From NCBI GenBank assembly GCA_001897355.1, contig MKST01000002.1:263811-327810 (forward strand): DNA of 64,000 nt. The letters run 5' to 3'. Position 1 is the stretch's first letter, and each line of letters starts with the position of its first letter. Of the stretch, positions 5,061 to 36,714 are shown in pieces. Source of the DNA: Solirubrobacterales bacterium 67-14 (GTDB lineage: Bacteria > Actinomycetota > Thermoleophilia > Solirubrobacterales > 70-9). The position numbers and the translations under genes were made by a program. Under the pieces are notes generated by a model, which ran no database searches, was not told the DNA's origin, and saw only the letters and a program-made list of their open reading frames with translations.

Positions 5061-6964
5061 TTGTAGCTCCTCGTCGCCAACTGGACTTCCTCGAAGGTGA
5101 GCGCTTCGTCGTGGGGAACCGGGTCATCTCCACCGTACTCCCAGGCGGTCGTCTTGGCGAAGTGCTCGTCGTCGCGCAGCGCCTCGCCGTCCTCGGTCTG
5201 ATGCTCCTCGCGGAAGTGGCCGCCGCAGGATTCCTCCCGCCGCCGGGCGTCGTGGATCATCAGCTCGGCCAGCTCGAAGAAGTCGGAGACCCGGTTCGCG
5301 TACTCAAGCGACTGGTTGAACTCCTCGTCGCCCGGGTCGACCCGCAGGTCGTTCCAAAACTCACCCTTGATCTCCCGGACCTCGGCCAGCGCCTCGTCGA
5401 GGCCCTCGGCGGTGCGGGACATGCCGCACTTGTCGAGCATCACGTGGCCCATCTCGCGGTGGAAGGCCTGGGCCGAGGTGCCGCCGCCGACGTCCATCAG
5501 CTTCTGGATGTGCGAGCGGACATCGGACTCGACCTCGTCGAAGGCGCTGTCCGAAGTGCTGACCTCGTCGTGGTTCTTGGCCAGGTGGGCGGTCACCGTG
5601 TGGGGCGAGATGAAGTAACCGTCGGCCAGGCACTGCATCAAGGCCGAGGCGCCGAGACGGTTGGCGCCGTGGTCGGAGAAGTTCGCCTCGCCGATCGCGA
5701 AAAGGCCGGGGATGGTGGTCTGCAGCTCGTAGTCGACCCAGAGTCCGCCCATCGCGTAATGCGGGGCCGGGTAGATCATCATCGGCGTCTCGTAGGGGTC
5801 GTCGCCGGTGATCCGGGTGTACATCTCGAAGAGGTTGCCGTACTTGCGCTCGATCGATTCCTTGCCCTGCTGGGCGATCGCGTCACGGAAATCGAGGAAG
5901 ACGCCGCGGCCGGTGCCGCCGACCCCGAGCCCGTCGTCGCAGACCACCTTGGCGGCGCGGGAAGCGATGTCACGCGGGGCGAGGTTGCCGAAGGCCGGGT
6001 AGCGCTCCTCCAGGTAGTAGTAGCGCTCGGTCTCGGGGATCTCGGCCGGCGGCCGGTCGTCGCCGGACTTGCGCGGCACCCAGATCCGGCCGTCGTTGCG
6101 CAGCGACTCGCTCATCAGAGTGAGCTTCGACTGGTACTCGCCGGTCTGTGGGATGCAGGTCGGGTGGATCTGCGTGTAACAGGGGTTGGCGAAGTAGGCG
6201 CCCCGCTTGTGGGCGCGCCAGGTGGCGGTCACGTTCGAGCCCATCGCGTTGGTCGAGAGGTAGTAGACGTTGGTGTAGCCGCCCGAGGCGAGCACGACCG
6301 CGTCGGCGGCGTGGCGCTCGATATCGCCGGTGATCAGGTTGCGGACGATCACCCCGCGGGCCTCACCGTCGACCAGCACGACATCCTGCATCTCGTGCCG
6401 GTTGAAGACCTGGACGTTGCCCGCGCGGACCTGATGCTCGAGGGCCGAGTAGGCGCCGAGCAACAGCTGCTGGCCGGTCTGGCCGCGGGTGTAGAAGGTG
6501 CGCTGGACCAGCACGCCGCCGAAGGAGCGGGTGGCCAATGCGCCGCTGTACTCGCGGTTGAAGGGCACGCCCTGAGCGACCGCCTGGTCGATGATGTTGG
6601 CCGAAAGCTGGGCCAGCCGCCAGACGTTGGCTTCGCGGGAGCGGAAGTCGCCGCCCTTGATCGTGTCGTAGAAGAGGCGGTGGATCGAGTCGCCCTCGTT
6701 GGCGTAGTCCTTGGCCGCGTTGATGCCACCCTGGGCGGCGATCGAGTGGGCGCGGCGGGGGGTGTCCTGGAAACAGAAGCTCTTGACCTTGAAGCCCTGG
6801 GCGCCGAGGCTGGCCGCGCAGGAGGAACCGGCCAGGCCGGTGCCGATCACGATCACGTTCTTGCCGGCCCGGTTGCGGGGGCCGACCAGTTTGTGCGTGT
6901 CCAGCCAGTTCTGCCACTTCTCCGGCAGCGGGCCGGGCGGGATGTTCGAATCGAAGACCGTCAT
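5057..6964 (-). CDS. sdhA: Succinate dehydrogenase/fumarate reductase flavoprotein subunit
   Basis: Catalytic subunit of complex II: oxidises succinate to fumarate with covalently bound FAD. About 635 residues, the length typical of the Actinobacteria/Bacteroidetes type-B enzymes. Visible are the FAD-binding [17 protein letters not shown], the [13 protein letters not shown] segment around the flavinylated His, and the active-site region near HPTCIP and ANRLGASAL. The ORF-track entry extends to 7237, but that part is out-of-frame shadow over sdhC; the ATG at 6964 overlaps the sdhC stop as ATGA. It overlaps sdhB by four bases at the other end. Works with sdhC and sdhB in the cytoplasmic membrane. 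Confidence 0.96.
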
Positions 6965-28486: not shown

Positions 28487-28583
28487 CTTTCCTCACAAGT
28501 CCGTGACAGATGTGTGACGGAATAGCGACAAAACGGCGCAAATCACTTGATCTCGTAAACCCATCCCTTACGCTGAAATCAGC

Positions 28584-28676
28584 GGAGGGTGAAGCTGCCA
28601 GGTGGTGGCGAGCGCTTGAAACACGTGAGTCCGAGCTAGCCGTTCGGATGGGGTTCGAGTCCCCCGCCCTCCGCCA
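28584..28676 (+). tRNA. Atypical Sec/Ser-type tRNA with 8/4 acceptor-T arrangement and UGA in the loop
   Basis: A 93-nt tRNA with encoded CCA and discriminator G. GGAGGGTG pairs with CGCCCTCC over eight base pairs, and the T stem is GGGG/CCCC around a standard TTCGAGT loop (8/4; a 7/5 reading leaves a T-C mismatch). The D arm folds as six pairs with a four-base AGGT loop, the selenocysteine-tRNA style, and there is a long variable arm (TCCGA/TCGGA). The anticodon loop would be CTTGAAA, giving UGA (serine UCA/UCG), not the UCA of tRNA-Sec. The anticodon stem is poor: only two Watson-Crick pairs and a wobble. Could be an allo-tRNA, a diverged selC, or a tRNA-derived regulatory RNA. Confidence 0.6.
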
Positions 28677-28829
28677 TAAATTCGCTGGGCCGAAGAACGT
28701 CAGGCGAGCAACGTTTCAAGCAAACCGCGGGTGGCTCCCGCCCTGTGGCATCTTCGGTCCCAGCATTCTGCTTGGTACTATTCAGATACGTGTTTCAAGC
28801 GTTCGGGAGTAGCTCTCCCGTCACCTTCA
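28677..28829 (+). ncRNA. Structured RNA segment downstream of the odd tRNA, with anti-anticodon-arm sequence
   Basis: No reading frame here looks real, but the sequence is full of paired segments. GCTGGGCCGAAGA at 28684 pairs with TCTTCGGTCCCAGC at 28751 with one bulge. Inside is a GCGGG/CCCGC hairpin at 28727-28741, and a further hairpin CGGGAG/CTCCCG occupies 28804-28820. ACGTGTTTCAAGCG at 28788-28801 is the exact reverse complement of 28613-28626 in the tRNA. A shorter copy, GTTTCAAGC, occurs at 28713. The segment is followed by a terminator, so tRNA and this region may be one transcript. Confidence 0.45.
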
Positions 28830-28855
28830 GAAAGACCCGCTCCGGCGGGTCTTTC
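28830..28855 (+). terminator. Rho-independent terminator after the tRNA-like region
   Basis: GAAAGACCCGC, loop TCCG, GCGGGTCTTTC, then TCATTT. A perfect 11-bp stem with a stable tetraloop, placed to end a transcript that begins at or before the atypical tRNA. Confidence 0.88.
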
Positions 28856-29049
28856 TCATTTCACAGCCTCAACGCGTTGCTTGGCCCGAATCGGTTCGGG
28901 TACCGATCGGGGTGCGTTCGGCCGGATCCCAGCGGCTTTCACCTTCTTCGGTTCCCGCTCGGGTGTAAAAGACCAACCGCCTCGGCGGAGCAAGGCGTCC
29001 GGCCCTCCGCCCCCTCAGACCGCGGTGACGCTCGTGCCAACTCCGCGGA
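28856..29049. other. Intergenic, nothing recognised
   Basis: About 190 bases between the terminator and the end of the minus-strand helical-protein gene. It is GC-rich, with overlapping shadow ORFs that do not show convincing starts. No RNA gene or repeat seen. Confidence 0.5.
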
Positions 29050-32085: not shown

Positions 32086-35000
32086 GTGACCGCAAGTTGG
32101 CAAGGGAACTTGTCTCGATATCTGGTCGCTGCGTTGATCGCGGCGATCGCCTCACTCGTATTCTGGACCGGCACGGCCTACGCGGCCAGCGGGCAGATCA
32201 GCATCGTCGGGACGAACTCGCCCCCGAGTTCGCCACCGCAGCTATCCGGTGCGCCGACCAACTACGTGATCAACTTCACCTGTTCGGCGACCGAGGTGGA
32301 GACCTGCGGCACCAACCCGACGGTCCGCATCCCGATCGACGTCACCTCATCGTTTCCGGGTACGCCCTCGCTCAGCGACTGGACCTTTGACGTCAACAGC
32401 GGCGGCACTCCCGGCCTGATCACCGGCTGGCACCTGGACACGGTGACCAACGAGATCGTGGTCGAACTGGACCCCGACGAGATCGACCCGGGTGACTCGA
32501 AGACCTTCAACCTCTCGGTCACCCCGCCGAACGGCTACACGCCGGACGGCACCACTTGGGAGATCCAGCCGACCTTCGAGTCGTCCACCATCCCCGAGAC
32601 CGAGGCGCCGGACCCGGCCCTGGGCGAGGCCCAGGCCACCGCGAACCTGGCGACCTCGAAGAACACCAACGACGGCGGCTCGGTCTACGTGGTCGGCAAC
32701 CAGGTGATCTACAACATCACCGCGAGCTGCAACCCCGGGTTCCCGCGCGGAAGCCTTTACCTGACCGAGGCCAAGCTGGTCGACACGCTGCCCCCCGGCG
32801 TGACCTTCATCAGTGCCAACCCGGCCCCCACTTCGGTTGCGGGCGGCACCCTGACCTGGGACTTCACCAACCCGGGCACCATGCCTCCCGGCTGCGTACC
32901 CGGTGCCGGTGGCACCTCCAACTACCAGGTGATCGTCGAGGTCCCGACTTCGGTCCCCGACGCCACCGTGCTCCACAACTCGGTGACCCTGAGCGGCAAG
33001 GCGGTCGGCAACCCCGACGACGAGCTCAGCTCCACCGCGGCCAAGGATGTGACCGCGATCAGCGAACCGCCGGCCAGCCCCGGCACTTTCCTCGGCAAGG
33101 GCTCGCAGGGTCCGCTGGAGATCGAGGGTGCCGGCTTCAAGGGCACCTATCCCGGCCACTGGATGCAGCCGTCCAGCTCCGCACCGGGCCAGAACCCGGG
33201 CGCCGCAGAAGGCCGGTACACGATGACCGTGACCTACCCGGCCTCGCGTGCCTTCCTGACCGACCTGGTCGACCCGATGCCGTGCCTGACCAACCAGACC
33301 GGCGTGCAGTACGACTCGCTGCCGGTGACCGGTGACGTGAACGGGTCCGGCTCGGCTCCGATCTGCGCCCAGCCGGCCTTCCATCCGACCGCGATCCGGG
33401 TCGCCTCGGCCAGCATGCCGCAGGCGGCCGCGGCCAGTTACACGATCCAGCTGATCCTCACCAACGGCTCGGTCGTGACCGTGCCGGTCGGGAGCATCAG
33501 CGGGACCAGCGCCTACTTCCCGGTGCCGCCCGCGAACGTCGGTCAGGTCACCGCTGTTCGGATCCCCCCGAACTCGAACCTGACCGATCGCACCATGACG
33601 ATCGACGTCTGGGGTTACGCCGACCCGTCGGTCGAGGCCGGTGAGATCCTCAACGACGTGGCCAAGGCCACTGCCTACCCGACCGACGACCCGAGCACGG
33701 CGGCCGGCAGCGGCCAGGACAACGATCGCCTCTACATCGAAGAGACCCAGCCTCAGCTGGCTGTCTTCAAGTCATTCGGCGGTTACCGGTCCGGTGCCGG
33801 CGGCACCACGCCGCTCAACATCGTCGGTGGCGTGACCATCCCGATCGGCTACACGCTGCCCGGCCCGGTGGTCCTCACCGACCTCCTGCCGGAGGACATG
33901 ACCTGGTCGAACCCACCTGGGAGCAGCACGGCGACCTTCACCCTCAGTCAGGGCGGGGTCAACGTCGGGCCGATCACCGGCGATGTCGAGTACATCACCA
34001 ACTACCAGGCCTCTGGCCGTGACCTCATCCGGATCAGCTTCGACCCGGCTGACTTCCCGACCACTCCGACCAGCGCTGGTTACTTCCGGCTGACGCCGCC
34101 TTCGAACCTGATCCTGGTCAGCGTGCCCCAGGAGGCGAGGGCGTACAACAACACCGCCCAGACGTTCATCTCCGGATCGGGGCAGAACACCAGCCCCGAA
34201 TGCGGCACCGCCTCGGGCACCAACGTCTCGGAGTTCGAGTCGGAGGACCCGCGGGATCTCGACGGGGACGGCGTCACCACCCAGAACCACTGCTCGTACG
34301 GGGCGACGCTCCAGGCGCAGGCGCTGCCGGGCGCGGCCTTCGGCCTCAGCAAGAAGGTCCAGGGCGAGCTCGACCCGTCGCCTCTCGGCGCCGGCCTGGT
34401 CGCCCAGACGACCAACGGCGGCACCGGTGAGTACACGCTGGTCTGGCGGAACACCGCGACCGACCCGCTGACCGACCCGGTGGTCTACGACATCCTGCCC
34501 CACGTGAACGACACCGGCGTCGACCAGGGGCAGTCCTCGACCCCCCGCGGCAGCGAGTTCGCGGTCATCTTCGACGAGATCAGCCATCTCGATCCCGGAG
34601 TGTCGGTCGAGTACTCGGATTCCTACAACCCGTGTCGTCCCGAGGTGTATCCGAGTGCGCCGGGATGCGTCAACGACTGGACCTCGACGCCAGACGATCC
34701 CGCCGACGTGAAGTCACTTCGATTCACATCGAGTGGGACGTACACGTCCGGCCAATCGTTCGAGATGCGTTTCAAGATTCACCTGCCGGTAGGCGAGGTG
34801 AACACGATCGCCTGGAACAGCTCGGCCTCGTCGGCCAAGGTCAACAACACCTACCTGTTGCCGGCCGAACCGCCGAAGGTCGGGATCACCGCCCCGATAA
34901 ACCCGGTCACCCCGACCCTCTCGACCCAGGTCTCCTCGGATGATCTGAAGCCGGGAGACGAGCTGTCCGACCAGATCACGGTCGGCGGCGCTGACGACAT

Positions 35001-36714
35001 CAACGGCACCGCCGACTGGACCCTGTACGGGCCGGTCGACGTCGGTGACGCCACCGACTGCGACGCCGTCGATTGGAACGGAGCCCCGGTCGCCGACCAG
35101 GGCAGCCTGCCGATCGCCGGCACGGGCAGCTACGACACCCCGACGACCACGCTCACCGATTACGGTTGCTATGGCTACGAGGTGACGATCAGCAGCCCGG
35201 GCTTCACCGATGACGTGACCAGCCCGGTCGGCAGCGCCAACGAGGTGGCGATCATTCCGCGGCTCGCGCCGACTCTCTCGACCCAGGTCTCCTCGGATGA
35301 CCTGAAGCCGGGAGACGAGCTGACCGACCAGATAACGGTCGCGGCTGCCGACCAAGTCGCCGGCACCGCCGACTGGACCCTTTACGGGCCGGTCGACGTC
35401 GGTGACGCCACCAATTGCGACGCGGCCGACTGGTCCGGTGCCGCGGTGGCCGACCAGGGCAGCCTGCCGATCACCGGCAACGGCAGCTACGAGACCGGCG
35501 CGACCACGCTCACCGAGATCGGTTGCTACGGCTACGAGGTGACGATCGACAGCCCCGGCTTCGGCAACCCGGTGACCAGCCCGGTCGGCAGCGCCAACGA
35601 GGTGGCGATCATCCGCCGCCTCACGCCGACCGTGAACACCAACATCTCGTCCGCCCGGATCACCCCGGGTGGCAACGTGACCGACAAGGTCACGGTCGGG
35701 GGCACCGAAGGGCGCCCCGGCGAGATCCAGTGGAGCCTGGTCGGTCCAGTCTCGATGGACGAGAACTGGACCTGCGACGCGGTCGATTGGACCGGCGCCC
35801 CGGTGGTCGATTCCGGCACCCTGCCGACCAATGGCGATGGCGACTACGACACCCCGGCCACGACGCTGCCCGATCAGGGTTGCTACGGCTACGTGGTGAC
35901 GGTAGGCGGCAACGCGATCGGTGGCAGCGCCAACAGTCCGGCCGGCAGCCCGAACGAGGTCGTACTCGTCCGGACCGATCCCGGCCATCTCACCGAGACC
36001 AAGCGGGCAGGCCGCAAGAACGTCCAGGTCGGCTCCAAGGTCAAGTACACGATCGTGGTGAAGAACGACGGTGCCGGTCCGGTGCCGGACGTGAAGATGG
36101 TCGACAAGCCGGCCAAGCCGATGAAGTTCGTCTCGGCCCATCCGAGCCAGGGAACCTGCAACGCGAAGTTCCCGCTCACCTGCAAGCTCGGCACGATCGA
36201 AGCGGGCCGCAAGGTGACCGTGACGGTGATCGCCGTGCCGCTGGTCGAGGGCAAGATCCCGAACACGGCGACCAGCTCGACTCCGGACCCGGAGGTACCG
36301 CCGGCGACCGACAAAGCGACGATCACGGGCAAGATTCAGCTCAAGATCGTGAAGACCGCCGGTCGCAGCAAGGTCCGGGCGGGACAGAGGATCAACTACC
36401 GGATCCGGGTGACCAACCCGACCGTCGCTACCGCCCACAACGTGAAGGTTTGCGACCGGCCGCCGGCCGGGCTGGAAGTGATCCGCACCCAGCCGAAGGC
36501 GAAGCTCGTGAACGGCGCCTGGTGCTGGCAGGTCAAGCGCCTCGGCCCGCACAGCTCGAAGACGATGAAGGCGATCGCCCGCACCCTGAAGGGCGCCAAG
36601 GGCCGGATCACCAACGTCGCCTGGGTTGAGGGTAAGGACATCATCCGGACCAAGAGCCATTCGGCGATCCGCGTGACCGGTGCCAAGCAGCGGCCAGGCG
36701 GAGTCACTGGTTGA
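32086..36714 (+). CDS. Large secreted surface protein with DUF11-like and three 119-residue repeats
   Basis: 1542 residues. A signal peptide (LVAALIAAIASLVFW ending AYA) leads into a long beta-rich, Thr/Pro/Gly-rich exterior part with several DUF11-like modules (for example NLATSKNTNDGGSVYVVGNQV and the two C-terminal units beginning TETKRAGRKN and KIVKTAGRSK). Residues about 945-1300 hold three consecutive repeats of 119 residues starting LSTQVSSDDLKPGDE; the third is diverged. No LPxTG motif or C-terminal transmembrane anchor is seen, so attachment is unexplained. The GTG start has GGAG eight bases upstream. It is translationally coupled to an L,D-transpeptidase (TTGA overlap), which suggests cell-wall attachment or wall remodelling. 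Confidence 0.85.
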   Translation: MTASWQGNLSRYLVAALIAAIASLVFWTGTAYAASGQISIVGTNSPPSSPPQLSGAPTNYVINFTCSATEVETCGTNPTVRIPIDVTSSFPGTPSLSDWTFDVNSGGTPGLITGWHLDTVTNEIVVELDPDEIDPGDSKTFNLSVTPPNGYTPDGTTWEIQPTFESSTIPETEAPDPALGEAQATANLATSKNTNDGGSVYVVGNQVIYNITASCNPGFPRGSLYLTEAKLVDTLPPGVTFISANPAPTSVAGGTLTWDFTNPGTMPPGCVPGAGGTSNYQVIVEVPTSVPDATVLHNSVTLSGKAVGNPDDELSSTAAKDVTAISEPPASPGTFLGKGSQGPLEIEGAGFKGTYPGHWMQPSSSAPGQNPGAAEGRYTMTVTYPASRAFLTDLVDPMPCLTNQTGVQYDSLPVTGDVNGSGSAPICAQPAFHPTAIRVASASMPQAAAASYTIQLILTNGSVVTVPVGSISGTSAYFPVPPANVGQVTAVRIPPNSNLTDRTMTIDVWGYADPSVEAGEILNDVAKATAYPTDDPSTAAGSGQDNDRLYIEETQPQLAVFKSFGGYRSGAGGTTPLNIVGGVTIPIGYTLPGPVVLTDLLPEDMTWSNPPGSSTATFTLSQGGVNVGPITGDVEYITNYQASGRDLIRISFDPADFPTTPTSAGYFRLTPPSNLILVSVPQEARAYNNTAQTFISGSGQNTSPECGTASGTNVSEFESEDPRDLDGDGVTTQNHCSYGATLQAQALPGAAFGLSKKVQGELDPSPLGAGLVAQTTNGGTGEYTLVWRNTATDPLTDPVVYDILPHVNDTGVDQGQSSTPRGSEFAVIFDEISHLDPGVSVEYSDSYNPCRPEVYPSAPGCVNDWTSTPDDPADVKSLRFTSSGTYTSGQSFEMRFKIHLPVGEVNTIAWNSSASSAKVNNTYLLPAEPPKVGITAPINPVTPTLSTQVSSDDLKPGDELSDQITVGGADDINGTADWTLYGPVDVGDATDCDAVDWNGAPVADQGSLPIAGTGSYDTPTTTLTDYGCYGYEVTISSPGFTDDVTSPVGSANEVAIIPRLAPTLSTQVSSDDLKPGDELTDQITVAAADQVAGTADWTLYGPVDVGDATNCDAADWSGAAVADQGSLPITGNGSYETGATTLTEIGCYGYEVTIDSPGFGNPVTSPVGSANEVAIIRRLTPTVNTNISSARITPGGNVTDKVTVGGTEGRPGEIQWSLVGPVSMDENWTCDAVDWTGAPVVDSGTLPTNGDGDYDTPATTLPDQGCYGYVVTVGGNAIGGSANSPAGSPNEVVLVRTDPGHLTETKRAGRKNVQVGSKVKYTIVVKNDGAGPVPDVKMVDKPAKPMKFVSAHPSQGTCNAKFPLTCKLGTIEAGRKVTVTVIAVPLVEGKIPNTATSSTPDPEVPPATDKATITGKIQLKIVKTAGRSKVRAGQRINYRIRVTNPTVATAHNVKVCDRPPAGLEVIRTQPKAKLVNGAWCWQVKRLGPHSSKTMKAIARTLKGAKGRITNVAWVEGKDIIRTKSHSAIRVTGAKQRPGGVTG
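34918..35988 (+). repeat. Three tandem 357-bp coding repeats
   Basis: Units start at 34918, 35275 and 35632, exactly 357 bp apart with no indels. Units 1 and 2 are nearly identical over the first 50 bases; unit 3 is clearly related but diverged. Each encodes one beta-rich domain ending SPVGSANEVAII or a variant. Confidence 0.9.

Follow-up and report, generated by a model that had tools for sequence, protein, structure and literature searches.

What use could a bacterium have for a tRNA gene that is accompanied by a perfect complement of its own anticodon arm? The question is raised by positions 28584 to 28857 of a 64,000-nt stretch of Solirubrobacterales bacterium 67-14 (contig MKST01000002.1, positions 263,811 to 327,810 of the forward strand; hereafter, the window), where a tRNA gene of unusual build is followed by what appears to be a second, small RNA gene. 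We consider it probable that the two form a self-contained unit made of RNA only, in which a serine-charged, misreading tRNA would act as a toxin silenced by an antisense RNA. The comparison of related loci revealed a conserved tRNA fold, non-serine anticodons, a complement that co-varies with the anticodon arm, a promoter-like box, alternative arrangements of the two genes, and their joint presence or absence.

The complement lies exactly where the original prediction, made from the letters of the window, had seen it. Bases 28613-28626 find a perfect 14-nt inverted match at 28788-28801, which wobble pairs extend to 19 nt (28609-28627 with 28787-28805). That such a match is very unlikely by chance also proved correct, since none of 500 shuffles of 28582-28860 that preserved dinucleotides produced an inverted repeat longer than 11 nt, counting repeats whose arms are separated by 30 nt or more. 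The partial second copy seen at 28713 is real, being located in the apical loop of a hairpin, and so is the strong terminator. This part of the unit comprises the following elements:

28684-28764, plus strand: hairpin GCTGG...CCAGC between both genes (conserved; test of own versus swapped loops)
28713-28721, plus strand: GTTTCAAGC in the apical loop of the 28684-28764 hairpin, complementary to the anticodon loop
28776-28781, plus strand: predicted -10 box TACTAT of the antisense RNA, with a predicted start near 28788 (conserved TANNNT)
28787-28805, plus strand: anti-anticodon-arm segment, the predicted 5' end of the antisense RNA (complementarity, duplex energy, shuffles)
28804-28820, plus strand: hairpin CGGGAG-TAGCT-CTCCCG of the antisense RNA (equivalent in nearly all loci)
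28821-28828, plus strand: TCACCTTC, which may pair additionally with GAGGGTGA (28586-28593, acceptor 5' strand and linker; suggestive only)
28829-28857, plus strand: intrinsic terminator AGAAAGACCCGC TCCG GCGGGTCTTTCT (sequence, fold)

What kind of tRNA is paired with this segment? The 8-bp acceptor stem, 4-bp T stem, six-pair D stem with a 4-nt loop, and long variable arm that had been described are all present:

28547-28574, plus strand: predicted tRNA promoter, TTGATC (28547-28552), 16 nt, TACGCT (28569-28574) (sequence)
28584-28676, plus strand: 8/4 serine-type tRNA (tRNA prediction, 30-copy alignment, covarying helices)
28584-28591 and 28665-28672, plus strand: acceptor stem, 8 bp (GGAGGGTG/CGCCCTCC; sequence)
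28594-28609, plus strand: D arm, six-pair stem and 4-nt loop
28611-28627, plus strand: anticodon arm, with the anticodon GAA at 28618-28620
28630-28648, plus strand: long variable arm
28650-28664, plus strand: T arm, 4-bp stem
28673 and 28674-28676, plus strand: G73 and CCA

Alignment to its relatives gives the anticodon as GAA, and the UGA of the original prediction has to be abandoned, as it is one nucleotide out of register; the ARAGORN call (“tga”) is shifted in the same way owing to the imperfect anticodon stem. The UCA in the inverted copy, which had been taken for a selenocysteine anticodon, is merely the complement of UGA, leaving the hint of selenocysteine unsupported. The acceptor GGAG/CUCC and G73 are the same as in the genome's own normal tRNA-Ser genes, and serylation is thus expected from known SerRS recognition. 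No family of Rfam 15 reaches its gathering score in the window unit; the tRNA falls below the Rfam tRNA cut-off, and its closest model is that of the selenocysteine tRNA, tRNA-Sec (43.1 bits, cut-off 47). Judged by its predicted fold, the tRNA groups with the 8/4 allo-tRNAs, as the original prediction had it in describing a selC- or allo-tRNA-like molecule with a downstream complement of its anticodon arm. No true tRNA-Sec gene was found in the window's genome, whose ordinary tRNA set is complete, including Phe(GAA), Leu(GAG), Val(GAC), Ile(GAU), Gly(GCC), and the Ser(UGA) that had been suggested as a check; therefore, the window tRNA gene is unneeded for decoding. The cognate codons are dominant in seven window genes, UUC making up 97% of Phe codons and AUC 98% of Ile codons.

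Searches with a covariance model built on the tRNA body and refined on 30 copies covered roughly 400 genomes each from the class and the phylum, plus four families, and yielded 32 copies in 23 genomes, all in Thermoleophilia (the window's class) and all with a tRNA-Sec/Ser-like body. At the strict cut-off, 22 of 399 class genomes were positive. Elsewhere in the phylum, all 21 typed matches were true tRNA-Sec genes and were afterward used as controls; the large searches used strict filters, the phylum sample was thin, and the family may also occur outside the class. Two further copies lie in the window's own genome, about 38 and 51 kb away, and BLAST relatives belong to the same order, one being a Solirubrobacteraceae metagenome-assembled genome (JAUYGN010000038.1). 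Over 30 copies, 93% of helix cells are paired and 25 of 30 pairs have changed on both sides, against at most 52% paired in slid-alignment controls; because the alignment was fitted to the model, these counts lean toward it, and both the slid controls and a first, handmade alignment agree. The 12-bp acceptor/T branch is split 8+4, the two helices being 98 to 99% paired, and G1-C72 and G2-C71 are found in 29 of 29 copies, A3-U70 in 28 of 29, and G73 in nearly all. The anticodons of the 30 aligned copies are GAU (9), GAC (7), GCC (6), GAG (5), GAA (2, the window and G007), and GUC (1). Hence, every copy carries G34, none has UCA or a serine anticodon, and 23 read hydrophobic NUC codons (Ile, Val, Leu, Phe).

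Individual copies deserve mention. A paralogue in the window's genome (G000:C2:330389-330477; L004 3386-3480, minus strand; anticodon GAC) exceeds the Rfam tRNA-Sec cut-off (50.3 versus 47), and copies like it may be misannotated as selC. In G062 (L071, 5559-5652 and 5872-5948), two tandem units, both GCC, lie about 310 bp apart, and the second has lost its acceptor stem and kept its matching complement. In one family (L061, L062, and L067), an ordinary tRNA-Gly(GCC) is located several hundred bases downstream of the unit.

Does the complement belong to the tRNA? A partner RNA complementary to the copy's own anticodon arm can be predicted in 31 of the 32 copies, downstream on the same strand in 28, upstream and divergent in 1, and within the tRNA gene but on its other strand in 2. 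Of the first 30 copies, 26 have the complement 18 to 140 nt downstream on the same strand (the second G062 copy partly by eye). The own-complement scores of 30 loci exceed those of shuffles and of 53 control loci (p = 2e-10), and nothing comparable was found at the controls, 24 tRNA-Sec and 29 normal tRNA loci. Tried against the tRNAs of other copies, the own tRNA is the best or nearly the best partner: the mean score is 35.2, the largest permuted mean being 26.2, and the duplex energy is -28.8 kcal/mol for own pairs versus -17.1 for swapped ones. At the metW site, the GAA copies of G000 and G007 and the GAG copy of G010 each have a matching complement, indicating that the partner changed along with the anticodon. 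Loci L156 and L188, met after the idea had been formed, both have the complement and the -10-like box. Homologues keeping the tRNA without its complement had been named as a reason to drop the original prediction; the opposite was found, the complement being kept and co-varying. A plain chance repeat is ruled out by the shuffles, the control tRNAs, and the swapped pairs.

The same data bear on whether the gene could be a decayed selC, a fate that the original prediction had itself raised, or an ordinary tRNA-Ser pseudogene with a chance complement. Despite a tRNA-Sec-like body and the subthreshold tRNA-Sec score of the window copy, this explanation retains a negligible probability, given the co-varying complement, 500 shuffles without such a repeat, and real tRNA-Sec genes without a complement; the decayed selC was rejected on helix covariation over 30 copies.

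At L058 (about 5405-5680; G347), two antisense-like modules, each with complement, hairpin, and terminator, follow one tRNA, and the second, diverged module may target another tRNA. At L012/L161 (G033), a 27-nt tandem repeat occupies the place of the downstream region, and an A-C mismatch interrupts the acceptor, a broken acceptor being as expected where neutralization is no longer needed.

Is the complement a trailer of the tRNA or a gene of its own? In a self-inhibited precursor, tRNA and complement would form one transcript, inactive until the trailer is processed. The minimum free energy fold of the joint transcript indeed pairs the anticodon arm downstream (z = -7.4 versus shuffles), and no terminator separates the tRNA from the antisense gene. 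Moreover, at many loci, the loop of the hairpin between the genes exposes another 4 to 9 nt complementary to the anticodon loop, whose own fit beats swapped fits (0 of 50,000 permutations reach it). This second anti-anticodon is part of the trailer of the tRNA itself, so the precursor may be inhibited in cis as well as by the antisense RNA. What speaks against the precursor model is the -10-like box directly before the complement: TANNNT is found upstream of it, typically at 8 to 14 nt, in 24 of 27 loci, compared with 2.8% in the same sequences. A hairpin and then a terminator follow the complement. Furthermore, some arrangements cannot be cis trailers. The complement of G027 is located upstream of its tRNA and directed away from it, behind TTGACG-17 nt-TACCCT. 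The two other copies in the window's genome have no complement nearby; instead, the opposite strand bears a TAAGAT box at a distance from which transcription would be expected to begin at the complement of the anticodon arm, and just past the tRNA 5' end there is a strong terminator in the same orientation. Such a box occurs in none of the 28 other copies, and, both copies being closely related, they count as one event. The three arrangements are predicted to lead to the same product, an RNA that starts with a segment antisense to the anticodon arm.

The own -10-like box and the divergent and opposite-strand arrangements thus argue for a second RNA acting on the tRNA rather than one self-folding RNA, with the addition that read-through transcripts could also pair in cis; the precursor model seems to us decidedly unlikely. 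Of the original proposal of a tRNA-derived regulatory RNA, regulation survives as the likely meaning, whereas a single self-pairing transcript is disfavored. Upstream of the tRNA itself, TANNNT within 24 nt is present in 18 of 30 copies (2% background). A strict sigma-70 scan returned no site in the window unit, the predicted tRNA promoter included, and it is the conserved -10-like box on which we base the promoter claim. As predicted genes, the pair of RNA genes is well supported. The antisense gene (28774-28856) weakly matches the Rfam model of the type I antitoxin RNA istR (27.6 bits, against a cut-off of 45), probably on account of its hairpin-terminator form.

How might the two RNAs work together? 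The product of gene 1 would combine the marks of serine identity (GGA...UCC-G73, long variable arm, tRNA-Sec-like 8/4 body) with a G34 anticodon that does not belong to serine. Once SerRS had charged it, and provided that the ribosome accepted it, serine would be inserted at very common codons, UUC for the window copy and common hydrophobic, Gly, or Asp codons across the family. Gene 2, transcribed from a promoter of its own, would give a small RNA (about 70 nt) that begins with the antisense of that tRNA's anticodon arm and continues into a hairpin and a terminator. By pairing, it would mask the anticodon and break the anticodon stem, and it may invade the acceptor 5' strand, leaving the tRNA silenced. 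The antisense RNA may indeed also contact that strand, as suggested by pairs such as CATCGCC/GGCGATG, TTCAGCC/GGCTGAA, and TTTCAACC/GGTTGAAA in the loci and by the window's TCACCTTC/GAGGGTGA contact, which forms in the joint-transcript fold; it is suggestive and not firmly significant. tRNAs are stable, and antisense RNAs are usually short-lived; hence, the tRNA would be set free once the locus was lost or no longer transcribed, which is how an RNA toxin-antitoxin module, for addiction or abortive infection, would work. We infer expression, serylation, mistranslation, toxicity, neutralization, release, and biological role. For the family as a whole, we lean slightly toward an RNA-only toxin-antitoxin system, possibly anti-phage or addictive, in which a Ser-tRNA acting at hydrophobic or Gly codons is matched by a co-evolving anti-anticodon antidote encoded in three positions.

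The distribution of the unit is in part what invites this reading. At the metW site, whose neighbor was confirmed as MetW by Pfam, the whole unit is present in 3 of 18 same-genus genomes, and both parts are absent from close relatives such as G001, G011, G012, and G015. No protein gene is shared across the neighborhoods beyond the metW synteny and that of a few close relatives. A phage, plasmid, or viral origin was rejected, as BLAST gave no phage or plasmid match and the sole viral pattern match is an ordinary tRNA-Ser in the tRNA array of a phage. The phage contig L183 (7568-11007; IMGVR_UViG_3300027857_000029) carries a dense array of at least 11 tRNA genes, among them genes of serine type with a moderate match to the model. 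An apparent 3' homologue, L014, proved to be an unrelated terminator. Within the window, a 1,542-aa open frame at 32086-36714 looks like a repeat-rich secreted surface protein.

The same parts could also serve a useful, regulated mistranslation, the antisense RNA tuning an adaptive serine-inserting tRNA, for instance in a stress response, without any addiction toxin. The chromosomal location, with no mobile genes nearby, and the selection on the structures agree with this. However, the presence is patchy (22 of the 399 class genomes), the anticodon differs between orthologous sites, and the commonest hydrophobic codons as targets do not suggest a conserved physiological role; we therefore view it as unlikely.

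Several observations weigh against the toxin-antitoxin reading. Many copies have an imperfect anticodon stem and may therefore decode poorly. The second G062 copy and L188 look damaged, and L012, the only copy without a partner, has a damaged acceptor pair. No mobile or defense gene is common to the neighborhoods, and -35 boxes are weak or absent at most loci. Two tests of the acceptor-strand contact across the full set of loci gave p = 0.25 and then p = 0.04, and 0.0015 was reached only in a chosen subset. Some odd 8/4 allo-tRNAs are described as neither chargeable nor usable in Escherichia coli (PMC7609411). This last point, together with the weak anticodon stems and the score below the Rfam tRNA cut-off, would fit a non-decoding tRNA body under antisense regulation, serving as a decoy or as bait for an anticodon nuclease, SerRS, or EF-Tu. 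Yet the acceptor, G73, the T loop, and the D-loop GG are kept, and a pure decoy leaves the choice of non-serine G34 anticodons for frequent codons unexplained, which makes this explanation very improbable in our eyes.

How, then, does a misreading tRNA under antisense control relate to known systems? As in the T-box riboswitch, an RNA would read an anticodon by pairing, but no downstream gene is controlled, the pairing spans the whole arm of one dedicated tRNA, and the T-box model of Rfam has no match in the window unit at gathering score or at E up to 10. With type I antisense antitoxin RNAs, the partner shares the form of a small RNA with hairpin and terminator, while its target is a tRNA instead of an mRNA. 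Bacterial tRNA-Sec likewise has a long acceptor, a D stem of 5 to 6 bp with a short loop, a long variable arm, and an expected role as SerRS substrate; the window family differs in being 8/4 rather than 8/5, lacking UCA, and being multicopy, patchy, and antisense paired.

The closest tRNAs are the allo-tRNAs described from Clostridia, Proteobacteria, and Acidobacteria (Mukai et al. 2017, as reviewed in PMC7609411), which have a 12-bp acceptor branch in 8/4 form, serine identity, a long variable arm, and mostly non-serine anticodons; for some of them, a connection with transposons or toxin-antitoxin systems has been suspected. The window family shares the 8/4 branch, the serine identity elements, the long variable arm, and the non-serine anticodons, but it belongs to Thermoleophilia and has a predicted antisense partner, of which the section consulted in that review makes no mention for allo-tRNAs. 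If the proposed mechanism is true, it may explain some of the uncharged, oddly built allo-tRNAs of soil bacteria. In the literature searched, which covered few subscription papers and no preprints, we found nothing joining allo-tRNAs with antisense RNA and no bacterial tRNA with its own antisense RNA gene against the anticodon arm; earlier reports may exist.

Among toxin-antitoxin systems, type VIII (SdsR/RyeA; CreTA) is comparable in that both components are RNA genes, as predicted here in 31 of 32 copies. CreT RNAs exert their effect on translation by way of tRNA, and CreA acts on the creT promoter through Cas proteins (PMC8501985, PMC12737573). In the unit described here, by contrast, a tRNA would itself be the toxin, with an antisense RNA to its anticodon arm as the antidote. 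As toxicity is so far a proposal, we do not class the pair as type VIII; it appears to be of a new kind, since no system is known to us in which a tRNA and an antisense RNA gene dedicated to it go together. This compact pair, with its predicted silencing of a tRNA, is open to direct testing; should toxicity be proven, it would form a new branch beside type VIII, in which the genetic code is used as a weapon and the antidote is pure base pairing.
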